Positions 15,200 through 64,000 of a DNA stretch of 64,000 nt are shown piece by piece. The DNA lies in contig CM060986.1 in the NCBI GenBank assembly GCA_030765065.1, positions 136,431,142 through 136,495,141 on the forward strand, in the 5' to 3' direction. Position numbers and translations under genes: made by a program. The notes below the pieces were generated by a model. It was not told the DNA's origin. It was given only the letters and a program-made list of their open reading frames with translations, and searched no databases. Within the stretch, counting starts at the first letter, position 1, and the number at the start of each line of letters is the position of its first letter. Source of the stretch: Deroplatys truncata (Eukaryota; Arthropoda; Insecta; Mantodea; Mantidae).

Positions 15200-15510
15200 T
15201 GAAGAATAATTAATTCATTAATTGAGCTAATAGAGGTTAAACCATGAAGCCCGCTACTTAAAGTACTTACAGCATTGTAAGTCATCATTGGAGTATGTCA
15301 TTCTCAAAACAATGAGACCTCCTTGTGGTTTACCAGGAAAAATGCGAGTCAGCTGGAGAATTTAATACCCTACCGGCATGTTGCCATAGTAGCTCTGTGG
15401 TTAGAGCAACCGGACGGAAACGGGAGATCCGTGGTTTAAATCCCGGCTATGGCATTGAATTTTTCAGTCGTCTGATTCTATCTTTCCAATCTTGTCCTAC
15501 AATGTGGCTA
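15200..15510 (+). mobile_element. SINE-C, plus arm of a head-to-head pair
   Basis: A tRNA-like segment GTAGCTCTGTGGTTAGAGCA and GTGGTTTAAATCCCGGCTAT (15387-15450) is followed by GGCATTGAATTTTTCAGTCG and a TTGTCCTACA end. Unlike a simple SINE it has a long 5' leader that contains GCTACTTAAAGTACTTACAG. A third copy is at 45200-45520 (-). The tRNA part resembles a GTAGCTCTGTGGTTAGAGC-type tRNA head, but the B box is mutated. Confidence 0.7.
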
Positions 15511-19765: not shown

Positions 19766-20384
19766 TAAAAAAATCTGATGTGTTACACTCACATGACTTT
19801 CTCTACTCTTGTACAAACTATTTTTACAAACCTTATTCTCCATCTACTACATGTAAATCGAGATAAACATTTGCAGACTCTATCTTATTGCTAATTTTCT
19901 TGTAGATGAAAGGGGAATGTATATTTACAAGGGCAATATAGAAATACAGTAGCCTTTAAGCACATACATATCTCTTAATAGCTGGTTGCTAGGTGCAGCA
20001 CCATTCCCTTTGCCACAGATTAATACTCTTTGCATATCCAAGACAAAAAAATCAATAACGAATTCCCATTTGAGAAAATAAGTTTTGAAAAATTTAACGG
20101 AATAACAAGCAATATCTCGAAAATGATTCACTCAACAAAAAAAATGTATATGACATAAATTGTGTATTTTAACGCAATCTACATTTTTTGTGTAGTAAAA
20201 TTTTGACTATCTCTTATGGTTTACCAGTTATGCTGTTCACAGACACACACGGACATGTTTCTAGAAATGCTTTTTTTGGATTCAGGGGGTCTCAAAACAT
20301 ATATTTCCGGTGAAATCTCGGTATCAAATTTTTGGGTGGAATAAATACTTCTACTTACTATACGTAGTGCAGAAAGTAATAAGA
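19766..20384 (+). mobile_element. DR1 copy with internal deletion
   Basis: It begins AAAAAAATCTGATGTGTTAC and ends TACGTAGTGCAGAAAGTAAT, so both ends are present. Between TTTACCAGTTATG and CTGTTCACAGACACACACGG about 330 bases of the family are missing. The junction lies in GTTATGC, which occurs at both places in intact copies. Confidence 0.75.
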
Positions 20385-21219: not shown

Positions 21220-22775
21220 TAGGGATGGGAACACAATACCGTTGATATCTCGATACTCGGCGGTATCGAACTATGTCTAATGCTTTGAGATAAACATTCA
21301 TACTTTTTCGATAGTTTTAAATTTTTAAGTTTTGCATTATTGAAAGTTGTTGCGTTTAAGTTTATGCTTGATAATGAATGAGAGATTTCACACTGCTCGC
21401 ATGTCGCCAAAACGTTTCTGGACTATAGTTCTTGATAGACCTTGACTGAGTTTCCTGTGAGTGAATCAATGTAACATTCCATAGACTCTTGTGTCTAAAT
21501 GAAAACATACAAAACAGTGAGGGAAGGAATAGAGGTACTCATATAACATGCAGCGTTAACTGAGTTGTGAATGAAGCTGATTTATCTGAAGCACTGAATC
21601 ACGTTTCTGCAATGGTCTGGCCTGGTGACTCGCTCAGTTTCTGGACTATAGTTCTTGATAGACCTTGACTGAGTTTTCAAAGACTCTTGTGTCTAAATGA
21701 AAATATACAAAACAGTGGAGGAAGGAATAGAGGTACTCGTATAACATGCGTTAACTGAGTTGTGAATGAAGCTGATTTAGCTGATGCAATGAGTCAAGTT
21801 TCTGCAATGGTCTGGCCTGGTGACTCGCTCAGTTTCTGGACTATAGTTCTTGATAGACCTTGACTGAGTTTTCAAAGACTCTTGTGTCTAAATGAAAATA
21901 TACAAAACAGTGGAGGAAGGAATAGAGGTACTCGTATAACATGCGTTAACTGAGTTGTGAATGAAGCTGATTTAGCTGATGCAATGAGTCAAGTTTCTGC
22001 AATGGTCTGGCCTGGTGACTCGCTCAGTTTCTGGACTATAGTTCTTGATAGACCTTGACTGAGTTTCCTGTAGGTGAATCAACGCAACCTTCCATAGAAT
22101 CTTGTGTCTAAATGAAAACATACAAAACAACGGGGAAGGGGTAGAGGTACTCGTATAACATGCAGAGTTAACTGAGTTGGGAATGAAGCTGATTTAGCTG
22201 ATGCACTGAATCAGGTTTCTGCAATGGCCTAGCCTGGTGACTCGCTCAGCATCACATTTCCGGCGACTAAAATATGTGAATCCAGCAGAAACAAATCAGA
22301 ACTTAAAGCGCATGGAAATATTTGTTCTTTCCTTCCAACTATTAGCTTGTGTTTACGCAAGTAAAACTCGGGTCACGAGCGTAGCTTAACCGTACGACTA
22401 GTTTCAATATTATGGATAGAAAATACCCCAAAAGAAAGTTTTCAGCACCAAATATAGTTACATAAAAAGTAAAGTAAAGAAATTATTATTACTATTATTA
22501 TTAGCCTTTACTTACAATAGGGGATATATAACCTGTGACATTATCAAGAAAAAAAATTGCTGCCAATTGGAGAATGTCAAACCGGAGCAATTTTGGAATT
22601 AGCGTACAATACGAAATTGATTACAGGCGTTTATACACAGAAAATTACTATAAGAACATAATCCAGTGAACAAGCTATCCCTTTACAGCGTTTATGAAGT
22701 GAGTAACGAGTATCGGTGCTCAAATATCAGTATCGATATCGAATATCGAGAAATAGTGGTATCGTCCCATCACTA
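21220..22775. mobile_element. hAT-like non-autonomous element with exact 8-bp target duplication
   Basis: The ends are inverted: TAGGGATGGGAACACAATAC on the left, and TAGTGATGGGACGATACCAC on the complement of the right. Both are exactly flanked by ATTGAAAC (21212-21219 and 22776-22783). An 8-bp duplication and TAGNGATGGG-type ends fit the hAT superfamily. The 1556-bp interior has no transposase but carries a tandem array (21415-22249), AT-rich DNA and a short ATT run. A second, interrupted copy lies at 41394-43681. Confidence 0.85.
21415..22249 (+). repeat. Tandem array, four units of 195-223 bp
   Basis: Units begin with TTTCTGGACTATAGTTCTTG at 21415, 21638, 21833 and 22028. Lengths are 223, 195, 195 and about 222 bases. 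The two middle units look essentially identical and share the same 28-base deletion relative to the outer ones, so they probably arose by a recent duplication. The other copy of the host element (41394-43681) has only one unit. Confidence 0.9.
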
Positions 22776-36122: not shown

Positions 36123-36204
36123 GAGTTCAATATCTGAAATTCAGTAAATTTATCGCCTGGTGCTTTCTTTTCGTTCTTCAAATGTTTGGGGTTTAGAGTA
36201 ATTT

Positions 36205-36350
36205 TTATTTTCTCTACTACGTATAATAAGTAGGGGAAGTATGGTATTCCACCCAAAAATTCGATACCGAGATTTCACCGGAAATACATGTTTTGAGACC
36301 CCCTAAATACAAAAAAAGCTTTTTGGAAACATGTCCGTGTGTGTGTCCGT

Positions 36351-36402
<52 letters not shown>

Positions 36403-37093
36403 CTGTGAACAGCATAACTCAGAAACGAACAGTCGGATAAATACCAAACATGGTATTTAGGTTCAGTATCTTTCAGAGATACGACACAAAGGTTTTCAAG
36501 AAAATCCCCCACCCCAGATTACCCTTTATATGAAGCATTTTTTGAAAATTTTAATTTTTACAAAAATGGTTCTAACGATTTTGATTAAAATGTCGTATAT
36601 TTAAGATACTTTCTATGTATATCTTGAATTTTCTGGGAATGTCTCCAAAAGCATTCTTCATTGTGAACGACTTTTGCATAACTGGTAAATCATAAGAGAT
36701 AGACAAAATTTTACTACACAAAAAATGTAGATCGCGTTAAAATACACAATTTATGTCATATACATTGTTTTTGTTGAGTGAACCATTTTCGAGATATTGC
36801 TTGTTATTCTCTTAAATTTTCCAGTACTTATACTTTTTCTCAAATGGAAATTCGTTATTCATTTTTTTGCCCTGGTAATGCAAAGAGAATGGAATACTCC
36901 ACATAGCAACCAGCTCTTAAAATATTTGACTATAGCTTAAAGCTTACTATATTCCCCTTGCATCTACAAACAAATTAGCAATAAGATTAACATCTCGATT
37001 AACATGAAGTAGATGGAGAAGAAGCGTTTGCAAAAATAGTTTGTACAAGAGTAGAGAAAATCATATGAGTGTAACACATCAGATTTTTTTCTA
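36205..37093 (-). mobile_element. DR1 full-length copy
   Basis: It opens TTTTCTCTACTACGTATAAT and closes GAGTAGAGAAAATCATATGA then GTGTAACACATCAGATTT. A pure GT tract (about 36357-36400) occupies the family position. It is close to the copies at 898, 46629 and 50844. T-runs flank both ends. Confidence 0.85.
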
Positions 37094-42317: not shown

Positions 42318-43146
42318 AAAAAATCTGATGCGTTACACTCACATGGCCTTTTCTACTCTTGTACAAACTATCTTTACAAACGCTTATTCTCCATATGCTT
42401 CATGTTAATCGAGGTGTTAATCTTATTGCTAATTTTCTTGTAGATGCAAGGGGAATTGGTAGGTTTTAAGCTATAGTCAAATATTTTAAGAGCTGGTTGC
42501 TATGTGGAGTATTCCATTCTCTTTGCATTACCAGGACAAAAAAAATTAATAACGAATTTCAGAAAAAGTATAAGTATTGGAAAATTTAAGGGAATAACAA
42601 GCAATATCTCGAAAATGGTTCACTCCACAAAAACAAATGTATATGACATAAATTGTGTATTTTAACGCGATCTACATTTTTTGTGTAGTAAATTGTGTTT
42701 ACCAGTTATGCAAAAGCCATTCACAATGAAGAATACTTTTGGAGAAAATTCGAGATATACATTTCATTTGTCATGAAAATATCTTAGACATATGATATTC
42801 TAATCAAAATCGTTAGAGCCATTTTTGAGAAAATTAAAATTTTTGAAAAATGTTCCAAGTAAAGGGTATCTGGGGTGGGGGATTTTCTTGAAAACCTTCG
42901 TGTCGCATCTCTGGAAGATACTGAACCTAAATACCAAGTTTGGTGTTTATCCGATTGTTCGTTTCTGAGTTATGCTGTTCACAGACACACACACAAACAC
43001 ACACACACGGATATGTTTCCAAAAATGCTTTTTTTGAATTCAGGGGGTCTCAAAACATATATTTCCGGTGAAATCTCGGTATAGAATTTTTGGGTGGAAT
43101 GCAATATTTCCCCTACTTACTATACGTAGTAGAGAAAGTAAAAATA
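42318..43146 (+). mobile_element. DR1 full-length copy inside the hAT-like element
   Basis: From AAAAATCTGATGCGTTACAC to TACGTAGTAGAGAAAGTAAA, about 830 bases, with a short CA tract (about 42983-43010). The flanks are GGATAAAAAAA on the left and GTAAAAATACAC on the right, an A-tract at each side. Confidence 0.85.
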
Positions 43147-46269: not shown

Positions 46270-46617
46270 AAAGTCAAATTCTGTTGTGTTACATTCCCAT
46301 GTCTTTCTCTAGTCACTATCGTTTATTTTCATATAGCTCCTGCAAACTATTCCTGTTAAAGCTTATTTTTCTATTTAGTTTTAATTGACATAAATGTTTG
46401 CGGATAAACAGGAGGGTTATAGGAGGCTGAAGTGGTGAAACTTTAAAAAGTGGCCTTGAAGTTCATACTCTTTCCATGACGTGATTAACAACTGTATATT
46501 GACCACACGTCAAAAAAATAACGAAGTATTGAACATTTCAAACCAATAAAAACGGATATCTCAGAAATGTACGATGCCGCAAAAAGTTTTTGAAATAAAC
46601 TGTATGTTTTAAAGAGA
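46270..46617 (+). mobile_element. DR1 left part of a split copy
   Basis: It starts TTGTGTTACATTCCCATGTC and has the family blocks to AACGGATATCTCAGAAATGT, GTTTTAAAGAGA. It breaks at TCTACATTTTT (46618-46628) and resumes at the identical 11 bases at 47861-47871. Confidence 0.75.
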
Positions 46618-46628
46618 TCTACATTTTT

Positions 46629-47566
46629 ACTTTCTCTACTACGTATAGTAAGTAGGGGAAGTATTGTATTCCACCCAAAAATTCGATACCGAGATTTCAC
46701 CGAAAATACATGTTTTGAGACCTCCTGAATCCAAAAAAAGCATTTTTGGAAACATGTCCGTGTGTGTGTCTGTGAACAGCATAACTCAGAAACGAACAGT
46801 CGCACAAACACCAAACTTGGTATTTAGGTTTAGTATCTTCCAGAGATGCGACACGAAGGTTTTCAAGAAAATCCCCCACCCCAGATTACCCTTTACATGG
46901 AACATTTTTCGAAAATTTAAATTTTCTCAAAAATGGCTCTAACGATTTTCATTAAAATATCATATGTTTAAGATATTTTCATGACAAATAAAATGTATAT
47001 CTTGAATTTCCTGGAAATGTCTCCAAAAGTATTCTTCATTGTGAACGACTTTTGCATAACTGGTAAACCATAAGAGATAGACAACATTTTACTACACAAA
47101 ATATGTAGATCACGTTAAAATACACAATTTATGTCATATACATTGTTTGTTGAGTGAACCATTTTCGAGATATTGCTTGTTATTCCCTTAAATTTTTCAA
47201 TACTTATTTTCTCATATTGGAATTCGTTATTCATGTTTTTGTGTTGGATATGCAAAGAGTATTAATCTGTGGCAAAGAGAATGGTGCTGCACCTAGAAAT
47301 CAGCTATTAACAGATATGTCTATGCTTAAAGGCTACTATATTTCTATATTGTCCTTGCAATTACAAAACAAGGGGAACATAGTACGCGTTAAGCGATAGT
47401 CAAATATTTTTAGAAATGTAATTTAGAAATGTGTAAAATGTAATTCTCTTTGCATGTCAAAAGATCGTTTCTGCAAATGTTTATCTCGATTAATATGAAA
47501 TAGATGGAGAATAAGAGTTTATACAAGAGTAGAGAAAGTCATGCGAGTGTAACACATCAGATTTTT
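46629..47566 (-). mobile_element. DR1 full-length copy inserted in another DR1
   Basis: From ACTTTCTCTACTACGTATAG to AGAGTAGAGAAAGTCATGCG, then GTGTAACACATCAGATTT. The TG tract is short. It lies in opposite orientation inside the plus copy 46270-48330. SINE-D sits between its end and the host's continuation, and the 11-bp duplication encloses both. Confidence 0.8.
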
Positions 47567-47860
47567 TACTGTTCCATTTATACCCCGACTTTAACTACAA
47601 TGATTATTGCGGCGACCTTTTATCTTTGGAACATATTGTCTATCGGCAATGGTGTTAACTCACACACAGTTGTCAATAGGTTTATGTTTTTTCTTTGGAT
47701 TTTATACATTAGATCACACACTCATCACAACCTCATTCATACTTCCAGACCCTGCGGAGGATAGAGAATAATCTTTGCTAGAGAAAAATTTCCACCCTAG
47801 CCGGGAATCGAACTCAGAATCCCTCGCATAGGAGGATTCCTCTATCGAACCCGAAATCCC
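47567..47860 (-). mobile_element. SINE-D, minus copy
   Basis: The complement has GAGGGATTCTGAGTTCGATT-type B-box sequence (GAGTTCGATTCCCGGCTAGG) and a body that resembles 595-816, including the CAATGG...CACAGTTG block. It is joined directly to the DR1 copy on its left; together they lie between TCTACATTTTT repeats. Confidence 0.55.
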
Positions 47861-48330
47861 TCTACATTTTTGTGCAATAAATTTTTTTCTATCTGTTATG
47901 GTTATAGAGTCATCGAGAAGTCCTTCAGAATGAAGAGTATTTCACAGGCTACCTTCTGGAAAATTCGAGATATACATTTTATTAGTCATGCAAGTATCTT
48001 AAATATATGGCATTTTCATCAAAAGCCATAGTGTCGTTTTTAAGAAAATAATAAAATAACGAAACATTTTCCACGTGAAGTGTAGTTTGGGATGGTGGGA
48101 TTTTGTAAAAAGTCCTTGGAAAGTGCAGAACTGAAATACGAAGTTTGTATTTACCCGGCTCTTTGTTTATACACACAGAGGCTTTATTTTGAAAATGTTG
48201 TTTTAGATTTAAGGACCTCCAAACATATGTTTACGATAAACTATCGATATCGACTTTATTGAATTTTTGGGTGGAATGTAATACTTCCTCTACCTACTAT
48301 TAGCAACTGGTAGAGGAAATAAAAAGGAAA
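47861..48330 (+). mobile_element. DR1 right part of the split copy
   Basis: It resumes at TCTACATTTTTGTGCAATAA and runs through CTTCAGAATGAAGAGTATTT and TTTTTGGGTGGAATGTAATA to CAACTGGTAGAGGAAATAAA. No long CA tract remains. Confidence 0.75.
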
Positions 48331-50370: not shown

Positions 50371-50612
50371 ACATGACTTTCTCTACTCTTGTACAAACTA
50401 TTTTTACAAACGCTTATTCTCCATCAACTTCATGTTAATCGAGATAAACATTTGCAGACTCTATCTTATTGCTAATTTTCTTGTAGATGTAAGGGGAATA
50501 TATATTTACAAGGTCAATATAGAAATACAGTAGCCTTTAAGCATAGACATTACTCTTAGTAGCTGGTTGGTAGGTGCAGCACCATTCTCTTTGCATATCC
50601 AAGACAAAAAAA
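50371..50612 (+). mobile_element. DR1 outermost copy of a triple nest (5' part)
   Basis: Starts ACATGACTTTCTCTACTCTT. Its subfamily markers are AGCTGGTTGGTAGGTGCAGC and GCATATCCAAGACAAAAAAA, also seen at 19766-20060. It breaks in that A-tract; its remainder is 52359-52971. Confidence 0.85.
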
Positions 50613-50843
50613 TCTGATGTGTTACACTCACATGACTTTTTCTACTCTTGTACAATCTATTTTTACAAACGCCTATTCTCCATATGCTTCATATTAATCG
50701 AGATATCGAGATGTCAATCTTATTTGTAAATTTCTTGTAGATACAAGGGGAATATGGTAGCTTTTAAGCGATAGTCAAATATTTTATCGCTGGTTGCTAT
50801 GTGGCGCATTCCATTCTCTTTGCATGTCCAGGACATAAAAAAA
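50613..50843 (+). mobile_element. DR1 middle copy of a triple nest (5' part)
   Basis: From TCTGATGTGTTACACTCACA to GCATGTCCAGGACATAAAAA. It breaks in the A-tract at the same family position as the outer copy; its remainder is 51723-52358. Confidence 0.85.
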
Positions 50844-51722
50844 TCTGATGTGTTACACTCACATGACTTTCTCTACTCTTGTACAATCTATTTTTACAAA
50901 CGCCTATTCTCCATATGCTTCATGTTAATCAAGATATCGAGATGTCAATCTTATTGGTAATTTTCTTGTAGATGCAAGGGGAATATGGTAGGTTATAAGC
51001 GATAGTCAAATATTTTAACGCTGGTTGCTATGTGGCGCATTTCATTCTCTTTGCATGTCCAGGACATAAAAAAAATGAATAACGAATTTTAGAAAAAGTA
51101 TAAGTATTGAAATATTTAAGGAAATAACAAGCAATATCTCGAAAACGGTTCACTCAACAAAAGAAATGTATATGACATAAGTTGTGTATTTTAACGCGAT
51201 CTACATTTTTTGTGTAGTAAAATTCTGTCTATCTCTTACGGTTTACCAGTTATGCAAAAGTCGTTCACAGTGAAGAATACTTTTGGAGACATTCCCAGAA
51301 AATTCGAGATATACATTTCATTTCTCATGACATTATCTTAAACATATGATATTTTCATCAAAATCGTTAGAGCCATTAAAATTAAAATTTTCGAAAAATG
51401 TTCCATGTAAAGGGTAGTTTGCGGTGGGGGGATTTTCTTGAAAACCTTCGTGTCGCATCCCTGGAAGATACTGAACCTAAATACCAAGTTTGGTGTTTAT
51501 CCGACTGTTCGTTTTTGAGTTATGCTGTTCACAGACACACACACACACAGACACACAGACACACACACACACACAGACACACACACGGACATGTTTCCAA
51601 AAATGCTTTTTTTGGATTCAGGAGGTCTCAAAACATGTATTTCCGCTGAAATCTCGGTATCGAATTTTTGGGTGGAATGCAATACTTCCCCTACTTACTA
51701 TACGTAGTAGAGAAAGTAAAAA
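50844..51722 (+). mobile_element. DR1 innermost copy of a triple nest, complete
   Basis: 879 bases from TCTGATGTGTTACACTCACA to TAGTAGAGAAAGTAAAAA, a good reference copy of the family. The CA tract (about 51536-51595) is interrupted by CAGACACACAG units. Its own internal A-tract (51069-51076, followed by TGAATAACG) is intact, which shows the undisturbed target. Confidence 0.9.
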
Positions 51723-52188
51723 TGAATAACGAATTTGAGAAAAAGTATAAGTATTGGAAAATTTAAGGAAATAACAAGCAATATCTCGAAAACGGTTCAC
51801 TCAACAAAAAAAAATGTATATGATATAAGTTATGTATTTTAACGCGATCTACATTTTTTGTGTAATAAAATTTTGTCTATCTCTTATGGTTTACCAGTTA
51901 TGCAAAAGTCGCTCATAATGAAGAATACTTTTGGAGACATTCCCAGAAATTTCGAGATATACATTTCATTTCTCATGACATTATCTTAAACATATGATAT
52001 TTTCATCAAAATCGTTAGAGCCATTTTTGAGAAAATTAAAATTTTCGAAAAATGTTCCATGTAAAGGGTAGTCTGGGGTGGGGGGATTTTCTTGAAAATC
52101 TTCGTGTCGCATCTCTGGAAGATACTGAACGTAAATACCAAGTTTGGTGTTTATCCGACTGTTAAGTTTTTGAGTTATGCTGTTCACA

Positions 52189-52224
<36 letters not shown>

Positions 52225-52358
52225 CATGTTTGCAAAAATGCTTTTTTTTGGATTCAGGAGGTCTCAAAACATGTATTTCCGGTGAAATCTCGGTATCGAA
52301 TTTTTGGGTGGAATGCAATACTTCCCCTACTTACTATACGTAGTAGAGAAAGTAAAAA
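51723..52358 (+). mobile_element. DR1 middle copy of a triple nest (3' part)
   Basis: It resumes with TGAATAACGAATTTGAGAAA and ends GTAGTAGAGAAAGTAAAAA. Together with 50613-50843 it makes about 867 bases, one full-length element. CA tract at 52191-52220. Confidence 0.85.
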
Positions 52359-52971
52359 TGAATAAAGAATTCCCATTTGAGAAAATAAGTATTGAAAAAT
52401 TTAAGGGAATAACAAGCAATATCTCGAAAATGGTTCACTCAACAACAAACATGTATATGACATAAATTGTGTATTTTAACGCGATCTACATTTTTTGTAT
52501 AGTAAAATTTTGTCTATTTCTTATGGTTTACCAGTTATGCAAAAGTCGTTCACAATGAAGAATACTTTTGGAGACATTCCTATAAAATTCGAGATATACA
52601 TTTTATTTGTCATGAAAACATCTTAAACATATGCTATTTTAATCAAAATCGTTAGAGCCATTTTTGAGAAAATTAAAATTTTCGAAAAATCTTCCATGTA
52701 AAGGGTATCCTGGGGTGGGGGGATTTTCTTGAAAACCTTCGTGGCGCATCTCTGGAAGATACTGAACCTAAATACCAAGTTTGGTGTTTATCCGACTGTT
52801 CGTTTCTGAGTTATGCTGTTCACAGACACACACACGGACATGTTTCCAAAAATGCTTTTTTTTGGATTCAAGGATCTCAAAACATGTATTTCCGGTGAAA
52901 TCTCGATATCGAATTTTTGGGTGGAATACAATACCTCCCGTACTTACTATACGTAGTAGAGAAAGTAAAAA
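52359..52971 (+). mobile_element. DR1 outermost copy of a triple nest (3' part)
   Basis: It resumes with TGAATAAAGAATTCCCATTT and ends TAGTAGAGAAAGTAAAAA. Together with 50371-50612 it makes about 855 bases. The AATTCCCATTTGAGAAAATA variant matches the subfamily of its 5' part, which supports the pairing. Confidence 0.85.
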
Positions 52972-53440: not shown

Positions 53441-54270
53441 AAATCTTGTTACACTCATAAAACTTTCTATACTCTTTTACAAACTATTTTTATAAACGCA
53501 TATTCTCCATCTACTTCATGTTAATCGGGATAAAGATTTGCAGAAACTATCTTATTCCTAATTTTCTTGCAGCTGCAAGAGGAATATGGTAGGCTTTAAG
53601 CGATAGTCAAATATTTTAAGAACTTGTTGCTATGTGCAGCATTCCATTCTCTTTGCACGTCCAGGACATAAAAAAATGAATTACGAATTCCCATTTGAGA
53701 AAAAGTATAAGTATTGGAAAATTAAAAAATATCTTGGAAATGGTTCATTCCACAAAAAAAAAACTGTAAATGACATAAATTGTGTGTTTTAACGAGCTCT
53801 TACATTTTTGTGTAGGAAAATTGTGTCTATGTTTTACGGTTTACCAGCTATGTAAAAGCCATTCAGAAAGAAGAGAACTTTTGGAGACATACCCAGAAAA
53901 TTCAAGATATAAATTTTATTTTTCATGAAAATAGCTCAAATATATGATATTTTAATCAAAATCATAGCCATTTTTTAGAAAATCAAAATGTTCGAAAAAT
54001 CTTCCATGTAAAAGGTAGTCTGGGGTGGGAGATTTTCTTGAAAATCTTCGTGTCGTATCTTTGAAAGATATTGAACCTAAATATCAAGTTTGGTATTTAT
54101 CCGACTTTTCATATTGAGTTATGCTGTTCACAGACACACACACACGGACCTTTTTCTAAAAGTGCTTTTTTTATTCAGGGGACCTCAAAATATGTATTTC
54201 CGGGAAATCTCGGTATGCAAGTTTTTGGTAGAATACAATACTTTCCTTACTTAGTAGGGAAAGTAATAAC
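53441..54270 (+). mobile_element. DR1 full-length copy
   Basis: From AATCTTGTTACACTCATAAA to TTACTTAGTAGGGAAAGTAA, about 830 bases, with a short CA tract (54134-54145). The internal GACATAAAAAAATGAATTAC target region is uninterrupted. Confidence 0.8.
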
Positions 54271-62175: not shown

Positions 62176-63300
62176 CCGAATAACTCCAAACTTGGTGGAT
62201 GTTGATACGGTTCAACTAGGCCCCGTATTTGATTTTATTGTATATAGCTTAAAAAAAATGTAAAATGTATTTAATATTATAACTCGATAGGAAAAACCTT
62301 CATATAAAAGACTGCAAATTGTTTGAGGAAGTAAGGTTCGAGTCACCAGCTCATCCCTTTTCTTGGGACAGGAAAGACTGTCGGTACGTACACAAAAGCA
62401 CTGAGCCATTAAAAAGGGTCTACGAGGTAAGTGCTATTTCTTTTCAAAGCGGAAGAAACATGATATTTGTGCCGAGAAAAGGCTTAAAGCCATAAACATA
62501 CGTACGTGCTACAGTATAAATTAAACTAATTGTAAGTAGTACCGTGGTAAGAGAAAGCTGAACAGAACTGAAATTTTAGCCAGTAAATGTAAAGTCAAGA
62601 ATACAAACTGACGAATCCGAAAACAGGAGATCGTCACATGGTTGAAAATCGCACAAAATAATCACGTAACATAGGCGGAGTAGGGATGAAATCAGACATG
62701 GCGAAATCCACAAAATACAATAGCCGAACTCTGCGCCCTGTAAGTTGAATAATGTCGGACATGGCGAAATTCACAGAATACAAGTAACACTTTTAGTTGG
62801 ACCCTGCGCCATGTAACTATACTCTTAGCTGAACTCTGGGCCGACAAGTATCTTGACTCTTAGCTGAACTCTGCACCGTAGAAGTAAGACCGCGGCTATG
62901 AACGCCTGGAAGGCATTACAATACGTCTTAATACTACCAACTAACAAATCATCTCTATGTCAGTCGCGGGTAATTGACGAAGTGGTGGCTCGCATTCCTA
63001 AATGTATAACATAACAGTATAATAAAGCCAATATTCACCAGAGCCGATGTTTTTATTATCGCAATAGATATATAATTTTACCACCCCCTGTAGACTTTAC
63101 AGAGTCGACACTGCTCAACGATAGCCGGAGAAAGAAGATACGTAATTGTTACGCATCGAGGAAGCGGCCAGCTTCAATGTGTAGAAGAGTGTGCAAGCTA
63201 TAAGTGATTAGATTTGTAGAGATATGGGGTACACGTAGACCGAGCAGAGCCCTCTCATGTCGGTCCGACAAAGTTAGTGTTGCGCCCAGTGTAGTCAGTG
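62176..63300. other. Unassigned sequence with a small degenerate tandem repeat
   Basis: At 62693-62890 the blocks ACATGGCGAAATCCACAAAA / ACATGGCGAAATTCACAGAA and CTTAGCTGAACTCTGGGCCG / CTTAGCTGAACTCTGCACCG recur. Otherwise nothing is recognised. It lies between the Tc1-like terminal repeat and the Tc1 ORF. Confidence 0.4.
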
Positions 63301-63343
63301 CAGAGCTGTCAAACAAGGTAGAAACAATAAAGTGTGTGCCAGT

Positions 63344-64000
63344 GTGCCTCGTCGACGTCAAAGGGAGCCATATTGGCATGTGAGCGAGTTCGAACGGGGC
63401 AGAATGGTCGGTCTCCGGGAAGCGGGTTTGTCATACCGTGACATTTCGGCTCGTACAGGGCAAGCTGCTACGACAGTGATGCGTGTGTGGAAGCATTGGA
63501 TAGATGAAGGAGCGGGTACTGGACCATGGAACATGATCACCGCACGGGATGACCGTTATCTTGTCCGCATAGCCATAACGGACCGTACAGCTTCATCCAC
63601 AGTGTTGGGTCGACGCTGGAGCACTGCAACAGGTGTGAACTTGTCTGTATCAACGGTTCGTCGCCGTCTGCTGCAGGTTGGATTGGTTGTATGCATGCCA
63701 TTAGGTCAGCTTCCATTGTCCAAAAACCACAAGCTCCTTCGACTGCAATGAGTACGTGAACACCGTCACTGAGGTGCTGAGTGGCAATATGTAGTCTTTT
63801 TAGACGAGTTCCGCTTCAACGTGTCCTACAGTGATGGCAGCATACATGTCCGGCGATACCGTGGTGAGAGTAACCTGGAGGGCTGCATTGTTGAGCGGCA
63901 TAGCGGACAAACACCAGGTGTGATAGTCTGGGGCGCCATTGGTTACAACAACCGATCCCGCCTCCTACGAATTGAGAGCACTTTGAACAACAACCGGTAC
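63344..64000 (+). pseudogene. Tc1 transposase, two nonsense mutations, cut by the window end
   Basis: The frame begins at 63344 with GTG where the family has ATG (VPRRRQREPYWHVSEFERGR), followed by the first helix-turn-helix (LREAGLSYRDISARTGQAAT, about 63410). It then has the linker and second DNA-binding block SVSTVRRRLLQVGLV (about 63650). TGA stops at 63749-63751 and 63770-63772 stand where relatives have Trp. After them the same frame continues with VVFLDEFRFN (first catalytic Asp at about 63803; relatives have FSDESRF) and VIVWGAIGYNNRSRLL to the window edge. The second and third carboxylates would lie beyond. One frame throughout apart from the stops, so it is fairly young. It acts, if intact, in cut-and-paste transposition at TA sites. 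Confidence 0.85.

Follow-up and report, generated by a model that had tools for sequence, protein, structure and literature searches.

DR1, a non-coding repeat of about 880 bases in the genome of the mantis Deroplatys truncata, is best explained overall as a HINE-like element that inserts serially into an A-tract in the middle of its own sequence, a reading that we hold to be very probable. Elements that insert into members of their own family are already known; the novelty lies in the scale of the process and in showing that members of a Helentron-like family nest serially at a single internal site. Target choice and termination are hard to study in Helentron-type elements because their insertions fall in anonymous T-runs. 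Tens of thousands of DR1 copies bear an identical target whose empty and filled states are known. With such a target, sequence alone suffices to measure preference, orientation, precision, event order and terminator bypass, and since each new copy brings the target along with it, the choice of landing site becomes testable. The system also suggests a way for an element to turn part of its own spread into self-nesting. The main doubts are how many of the events are independent and to what extent the mid site is explained by tract length alone.

DR1 and the triple nest in the window

DR1 starts with TCTGATGTGTTACACTCACATG-ACTTTCTCTACT, ends with CTACTTACTATACGTAGTAGAGAAAGT-AAAAA and contains an internal CA microsatellite; on the opposite strand it reads T5-ACTTTCTCTACT at one end and AGTAGAGAAAGT-hairpin-CAGA followed by a T-tract at the other. 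Its subterminal inverted repeats are unequally spaced, ACTTTCTCTACT lying 22 bases inside the left end and AGTAGAGAAAGT standing before the final A5. In 98 of 121 sampled left ends the 5-bp stem around TTACACT is fully paired; compared with shuffled sequences, the right end folds somewhat better (z -2.25) and the left end (z -0.90) and mid site (z -0.54) no better. The copies compared indicate that each DR1 carries the mid site, GACA(T)-A7-8-TGAATAACG, about 232 bases from its left end.

The window, a stretch of 64,000 bases from a genome assembly of 4.29 Gb in 818 contigs, holds three forward-strand copies nested within one another. Copy A, of subfamily 2, is split into a left half (50371-50612) that lacks about the first 17 element bases and closes with an A7 tract (50606-50612), and a right half (52359-52971) that opens with TGAATAAAG and closes with GTAAAAA. 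Copy B is split into a left half (50613-50843), which opens with TCTGATG and closes with an A7 tract (50837-50843), and a right half (51723-52358), which opens with TGAATAACG and likewise closes with GTAAAAA. Copy C (50844-51722) is innermost and complete: it begins with TCTG, the hairpin ATGTG-TTACACT-CACAT and the subterminal repeat ACTTTCTCTACT (50844-50877), carries the uninterrupted target GACAT-A8-TGAATAA at 51063-51082 (A-tract 51068-51075), and ends with the subterminal repeat AGTAGAGAAAGT and A5 (51706-51722). No open reading frame of at least 120 aa lies within copy C; one frame of 123 aa starts at the end of copy A and enters the flank.

This nest is confirmed: the six coordinates of the original prediction proved exact to the base, and its element lengths of 855, 867 and 879 bases were correct. 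Also as predicted, both split copies are broken at the same family position, C lying within B and B within A, each directly 3' of the same A7 tract. The left junctions read gacaaaaaaa followed by TCTGATG (A/B) and gacataaaaaaa followed by TCTGATG (B/C), TCTGATG being the start of both B and C, and both right junctions read GAGAAAGTAAAAA followed by TGAATAA. The predicted sharing of subfamily variants by the outer halves holds as well. When the window copies are aligned, A groups with the copies at 19769 and 46624, against B, C and the copies at 900, 42324 and 36202, at 29 diagnostic columns of the left half and at 7 right-half columns next to the break. Gaps, in three runs, make up 16 of the 29, which therefore represent fewer than 29 independent changes, and 11 further microsatellite columns were left out of the count. 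B and C are 4.7% divergent over their left halves and 3.5% over their right halves, and each has a closer sampled relative than the other (left-half distance 0.043 between them, 0.013 and 0.009 to the nearest other relatives in the sample). Because A is unlike B and C in subfamily in both halves, doubling of halves within one element cannot yield the nest, which instead records two successive insertions, the first of a subfamily-1 copy into an older subfamily-2 copy and the second of a related subfamily-1 copy into the first.

Beyond A, B and C the window contains six DR1 copies, some with deletions or inserts, plus fragments and diverged relatives. On the forward strand lie copies at 19774-20382 (subfamily 2, with an internal deletion), 42324-43144 (uninterrupted) and 53447-54256 (more diverged), and on the reverse strand copies at 898-1849 (with a 94-base insert), 36202-37083 (after the T7 tract of a diverged DR1 relative) and 46624-47561 (subfamily 2, with a rearranged left half). 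By eye, a diverged DR1 relative at 46289-48325 seems to contain a tRNA-like SINE flanked by TCTACATTTTT, in whose A-tail the copy at 46624-47561 appears to sit. Elsewhere in the window, a 195-base unit is repeated three times in tandem at 21483-22066 with 96% matches and no kinship to DR1 among its BLAST hits, and 15383-15454 is a tRNA gene or tRNA-derived repeat (RF00005, 42.1 bits), the sole Rfam match in the window. A Tc1-like transposase fragment lies at 63278-63748 (PF01498, E 2.6e-10); Pfam searches of five window ORFs returned nothing except this piece. One pattern scan of viral contigs and one search of phage gave no match.

Choice of the mid A-tract

Exact patterns searched on both strands of the genome recovered 12,239 nested left junctions (TTTGCATNNCCAGGACA-N5-16-TCTGATG), 14,377 nested right junctions (AGTAGAGAAAGT-N3-10-TGAATAACGAATT), 54,934 uninterrupted mid sites and 97,484 strict DR1 left ends, counts that leave out copies with mutations and sites of subfamily 2, among them that of A (CCAAGACA); the reversed-pattern control for each of the four gave 0. 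Left and right junctions are coupled: of the 96 left junctions in the first ~34.3 Mb of contig C1, 30 are followed at 0.3-3 kb downstream by a right junction on their own strand, compared with 0 when the right junction is looked for upstream and 2 when it is looked for on the opposite strand. In the same stretch, left junctions occur in 77 single, 8 double and 1 triple runs and right junctions in 75, 10 and 1, so that by exact matches about one nest in 8-10 is at least triple, like that in the window.

Outside DR1, an A-run of five or more, which is oligo-T when read from the opposite strand, precedes 44 of 54 sampled left ends. The runs used there, of lengths 5 to 9, number 11, 17, 8, 7 and 1, and the A-runs present, in a sample seeded with DR1, number 584, 168, 69, 26 and 8, so that use per tract rises about fivefold from A5 to A6 and less steeply beyond. 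The base after the insertion site is T in 24, G in 18 and C in 13 of 55 cases, with no selection seen; a requirement for T after the tract is unsupported. At filled sites inside DR1, A6-7 is kept on the left and A5-6 on the right and nothing is lost; any target duplication is at most A5-6, an A5 duplication being indistinguishable from an A5 owned by the element. These junctions indicate that DR1 enters A-tracts of about 5-9 bases at their 3' edge and duplicates A5 at most, and that later copies land at the mid tract in the same orientation, giving nests of the form A[B[C]].

Nested junctions, counted at five places within DR1 (mid, A7, A6, A5 and tail), are not spread evenly along the element. 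The mid site (A7-8) is filled in 12,239 cases and empty in 54,934 (18.2% raw), against 2,671 and 126,022 (2.1%) for an A7 tract and 1,072 and 117,719 (0.9%) for an A6 tract, both on the other strand of DR1; corrected for pattern length at an assumed divergence of 8%, the filled fractions become 11.9%, 1.4% and 0.8%. An A5 tract on the same strand yields 63 left junctions (reversed control, 4). In raw terms the mid site is filled about nine times more often than the A7 tract elsewhere in the same elements, an excess inflated by composites moving as units; when only the 25 of 46 doubled left pairs with a matched outer right half are counted as in-place insertions, the excess over A7 is about 4-5-fold. 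The mid-site preference is thus likely to be real. The original prediction that DR1 prefers its own A-tract is supported to this extent, but A-tracts are a general target and composites inflate the count, and its further claim that DR1 grows by self-insertion holds for clusters and fails for the single element.

The A5 tract of the tail is another hot site, with 9,635 exact head-to-tail junctions genome-wide (GAGAAAGTA...TCTGATGTG) by which DR1 stands in tandem at its own tail A-tract; these perhaps arise by tandem read-through. Near the beginning of contig C1 (C1:20510-119398), an array with a period of ~3,409 bases shows a strict left end of DR1 together with the A7 motif in successive units, so that DR1 here belongs to a satellite-like unit.

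Two further candidates for guiding insertion were rejected. A general same-strand bias inside DR1 is not strong, since sampled insertions apart from the mid and tail sites comprise 8 on the same strand (including two mid sites that the motif failed to pick up) and 7 on the opposite strand. The GT-type mid site has a palindrome, ATGTCCAGGACAT, that the TA-type lacks; as a general attractant, a palindrome beside the tract shows no excess at 45 outside sites against 822 control tracts (p 0.97). TA-type sites make up 22 of the first 100 listed filled sites versus 33 of the first 100 listed empty ones (by eye; Fisher p 0.11).

It is conceivable, though we think it the lesser possibility, that DR1 has no preference for self and simply uses A-tracts, of which the mid tract is the longest that it carries. 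The ends outside DR1, the rise in per-tract use with tract length in the sample and the rise in junctions within DR1 from A5 through A6 to A7 all agree with this, and since A-tracts of at least five bases serve as targets in general (44 of 54), the preference is in part one for the longest A-tract in the element. Against it stands the low filling of the A7 tract in the same elements, both raw and corrected; as the following base seems unimportant, this tract, which is followed by G, is a fair control, though on the other strand.

The excess might also come mostly from a few nested composites that were amplified by transposing as units, which we regard as rather unlikely. In the cluster sample, 90 of 94 three-kb loci (without L092-L095), seeded by junction or site patterns and hence not random, were merged into 67 stretches of C1 and parsed together with the window. 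Alignments below 82% identity and halves less than 60% complete were dropped before the pairing, age and nearest-relative tests, and 46 of 50 doubled left pairs were usable. The clusters at C1:20875504, 20929254 and 21829758 are multiplied composites with the same unusual order, 21 of the 46 usable pairs lack a matched outer right half, 5 of the 50 have nearest relatives in common with a pair from a different cluster, which hints at the copying of composites, and the neighbouring clusters at C1:17409358 and 17423865 have a common right flank; yet 25 of the 46 pairs do have the matched outer right half, in a sample of about 50 of more than 12,000 junctions that would miss small founder families.

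Element class and the origin of the clusters

DR1 looks like a HINE-like element, that is, a non-coding relative of the rolling-circle Helentrons, and combines the unequal subterminal inverted repeats, T-rich target and lack of coding capacity by which HINEs are recognised. Canonical Helitrons have a 5' TC and a 3' CTRR and insert between A and T; the TC start of DR1 after A fits this, but its GTAAAAA end and a following T in only 24 of 55 cases do not. MITEs, as TIR transposons, have inverted repeats at their very ends and a target duplication of fixed length, and DR1 was rejected as one because its left repeat lies 22 bases inside the terminus and no duplication extends beyond possible A's. 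SINEs are flanked by target duplications of about 7-20 bases and end in an A tail of variable length; in DR1, comparison of filled with empty internal sites permits a duplication of at most A5-6, and the right end is a nearly constant A5 (43 of 65 ends away from the mid site). Subterminal inverted repeats, which DR1 has, are not known to be a SINE feature. Hence a SINE-like retroposed element aimed at A-tracts, to which the A-tract target and the A5 right end would otherwise point and for which Alu insertion near A-rich parts of Alu is a known parallel, as described in PMC3783187, is an improbable identity for DR1.

With left halves written "(" and right halves ")", 47 of the 109 clusters parsed contain a doubled half (both kinds in 23, only "((" in 15, only "))" in 9), and 14 of the 47 form perfectly balanced words, including (()), ((())), (()()) and ()(()). 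The subfamilies may be mirrored about the centre, as in C1:15842910 (s2-s1-s1 on the left, s1-s1-s2 on the right) and C1:9328772 (s2-s1, s1-s2). Pairing the halves as brackets beats the alternative in 21 of 27 comparisons, the other pairing being favoured in 6, and, counted by cluster, fits better in 17 of 20 (sign-flip p 0.00135). The outer half has more private changes than its inner neighbour in 28 versus 11 of 46 left pairs (sign p 0.009) and 24 versus 9 of 35 right pairs (p 0.014); the subset with matched outer halves has the same trend more weakly (left 13 versus 5, sign p 0.096; right 16 versus 7, sign p 0.093). Single elements have changed about as much as outer halves (0.0072 versus 0.0062 for right halves) and are not clearly younger. 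Adjoining halves are mutual nearest relatives in only 1 of 46 left pairs and 2 of 35 right pairs. Together, the pairing, the age order and the nearest-relative results suggest that later copies landed inside earlier ones, and they point to DR1 clusters as the product of serial self-insertion and not of tandem duplication; duplication of halves, taken as the form of the duplication origin that would have weighed against the original prediction, does not fit the same three results.

That unequal crossing-over or template switching between A-tracts doubled left and right halves separately and so mimicked nesting is very improbable, for although the left halves form a 231-base tandem repeat, unbalanced clusters occur and one adjoining left-half pair (C1:17324147) is nearly identical (0.009), A mismatches B and C in subfamily while its own halves match, left and right junctions are coupled in place and direction, and the pairing, age and nearest-relative results all run the other way.

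Clusters of the unbalanced types (() and ()) are common, a count to which cut halves, interrupted halves and halves below 82% identity contribute. Some are truncated or disrupted, as at C1:9266322, where about 1 kb of other DNA follows the right junction before more DR1 sequence; some have normal element ends and flanks. The different DR1 clusters at C1:17409358-17413041 and 17423865-17427791, 14 kb apart with the common right flank TGAGTTTTATTTAT, are a local duplication followed by change within the nests.

Proposed mechanism and comparison with known systems

Under the HINE-like reading, an autonomous Rep/helicase would move DR1 as a strand copy joined at T-tracts. A nested rolling-circle element offers two starts and two stops, and a round on such a template may start at one copy's start and stop at another's terminator; mixed use would then give (() and ()) and, with them, mobile composites whose left and right halves differ in number, a scheme that holds in the orientation read here if the Helentron 5' end is the 3' end of the sequence as read.

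An autonomous Helentron partner is only a lead. Helitron_like_N (PF14214) has 152 matches in the window's genome, with open frames of at least 1,000 aa in 30 among the matches listed, and 0 of 14 control genomes gave a match. One match, at C1:33206011 on the forward strand, has a 2,343-aa frame and is flanked by one left and one right nested DR1 junction (C1:33200522-33211293), both on the minus strand, in the right order and 10.7 kb apart; within the stretch covered by both junction lists, 1 of 2 Helitron_like_N matches, among the matches listed, is so flanked. It may be an autonomous partner within a DR1 mid site or may lie between two unrelated clusters. More speculatively, the mid A-tract could be a landing pad for the transposition machinery of DR1, recognised well beyond its length, also by an autonomous Helentron (the candidate at C1:33200522-C1:33211293), such that a sizeable share of insertions is channelled into DR1 itself, other DNA is spared and mobile composites with multiple starts and terminators are bred; we consider this doubtful.

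Among known systems, DR1 most resembles HINE and DINE-1 elements, whose plan, as outlined in PMC4067079 and PMC7492417, comprises subterminal repeats, a palindrome before the 3' end (which would be the left end as read here), a T-rich target with no clear duplication and a microsatellite. DR1 is like them in being non-coding and of high copy number and in its unequal subterminal inverted repeats, microsatellite and T-rich target; a palindrome near one end and the lack of a clear target duplication may be further likenesses. The distances from repeat to end are 0-5 and 22 bases in DR1, compared with about 2-4 and 38-60 in the mite HINEs described in PMC4067079, and self-nesting at one site, present in DR1, is absent from the HINE descriptions compared (PMC4067079; PMC7492417). 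Among the titles and abstract openings returned by a literature search, no title concerned same-site self-nesting of a HINE.

Insertion into the same family is shared with MITEs, which often insert into members of their own family (Jiang and Wessler 2001, as cited in PMC3695323) and belong to a different transposon class. Alu is likewise a repeat with an A-rich target that itself carries A-rich stretches, as set out in PMC3783187, but it moves by retroposition; Table 5 of that source shows an enrichment of the tail region (+) under one of two expectations and none of the middle region (+). In plant LTR retrotransposons, some families favour older copies of their own and certain regions of them for autoinsertion (PMC6911290, in outline); there the preference is for regions and integrase-based, whereas in DR1 it is for one base position. 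Fusarium Helitrons, as portrayed in PMC5148889, insert into themselves and form composites with extra 5' ends in which the start and stop of different copies can be combined, and the mixed start and stop scheme suggested here for DR1 is in line with the one proposed for them. The account of the Fusarium elements gives one nested example and several elements with multiple termini (PMC5148889), whereas DR1 has thousands of nests at one site.
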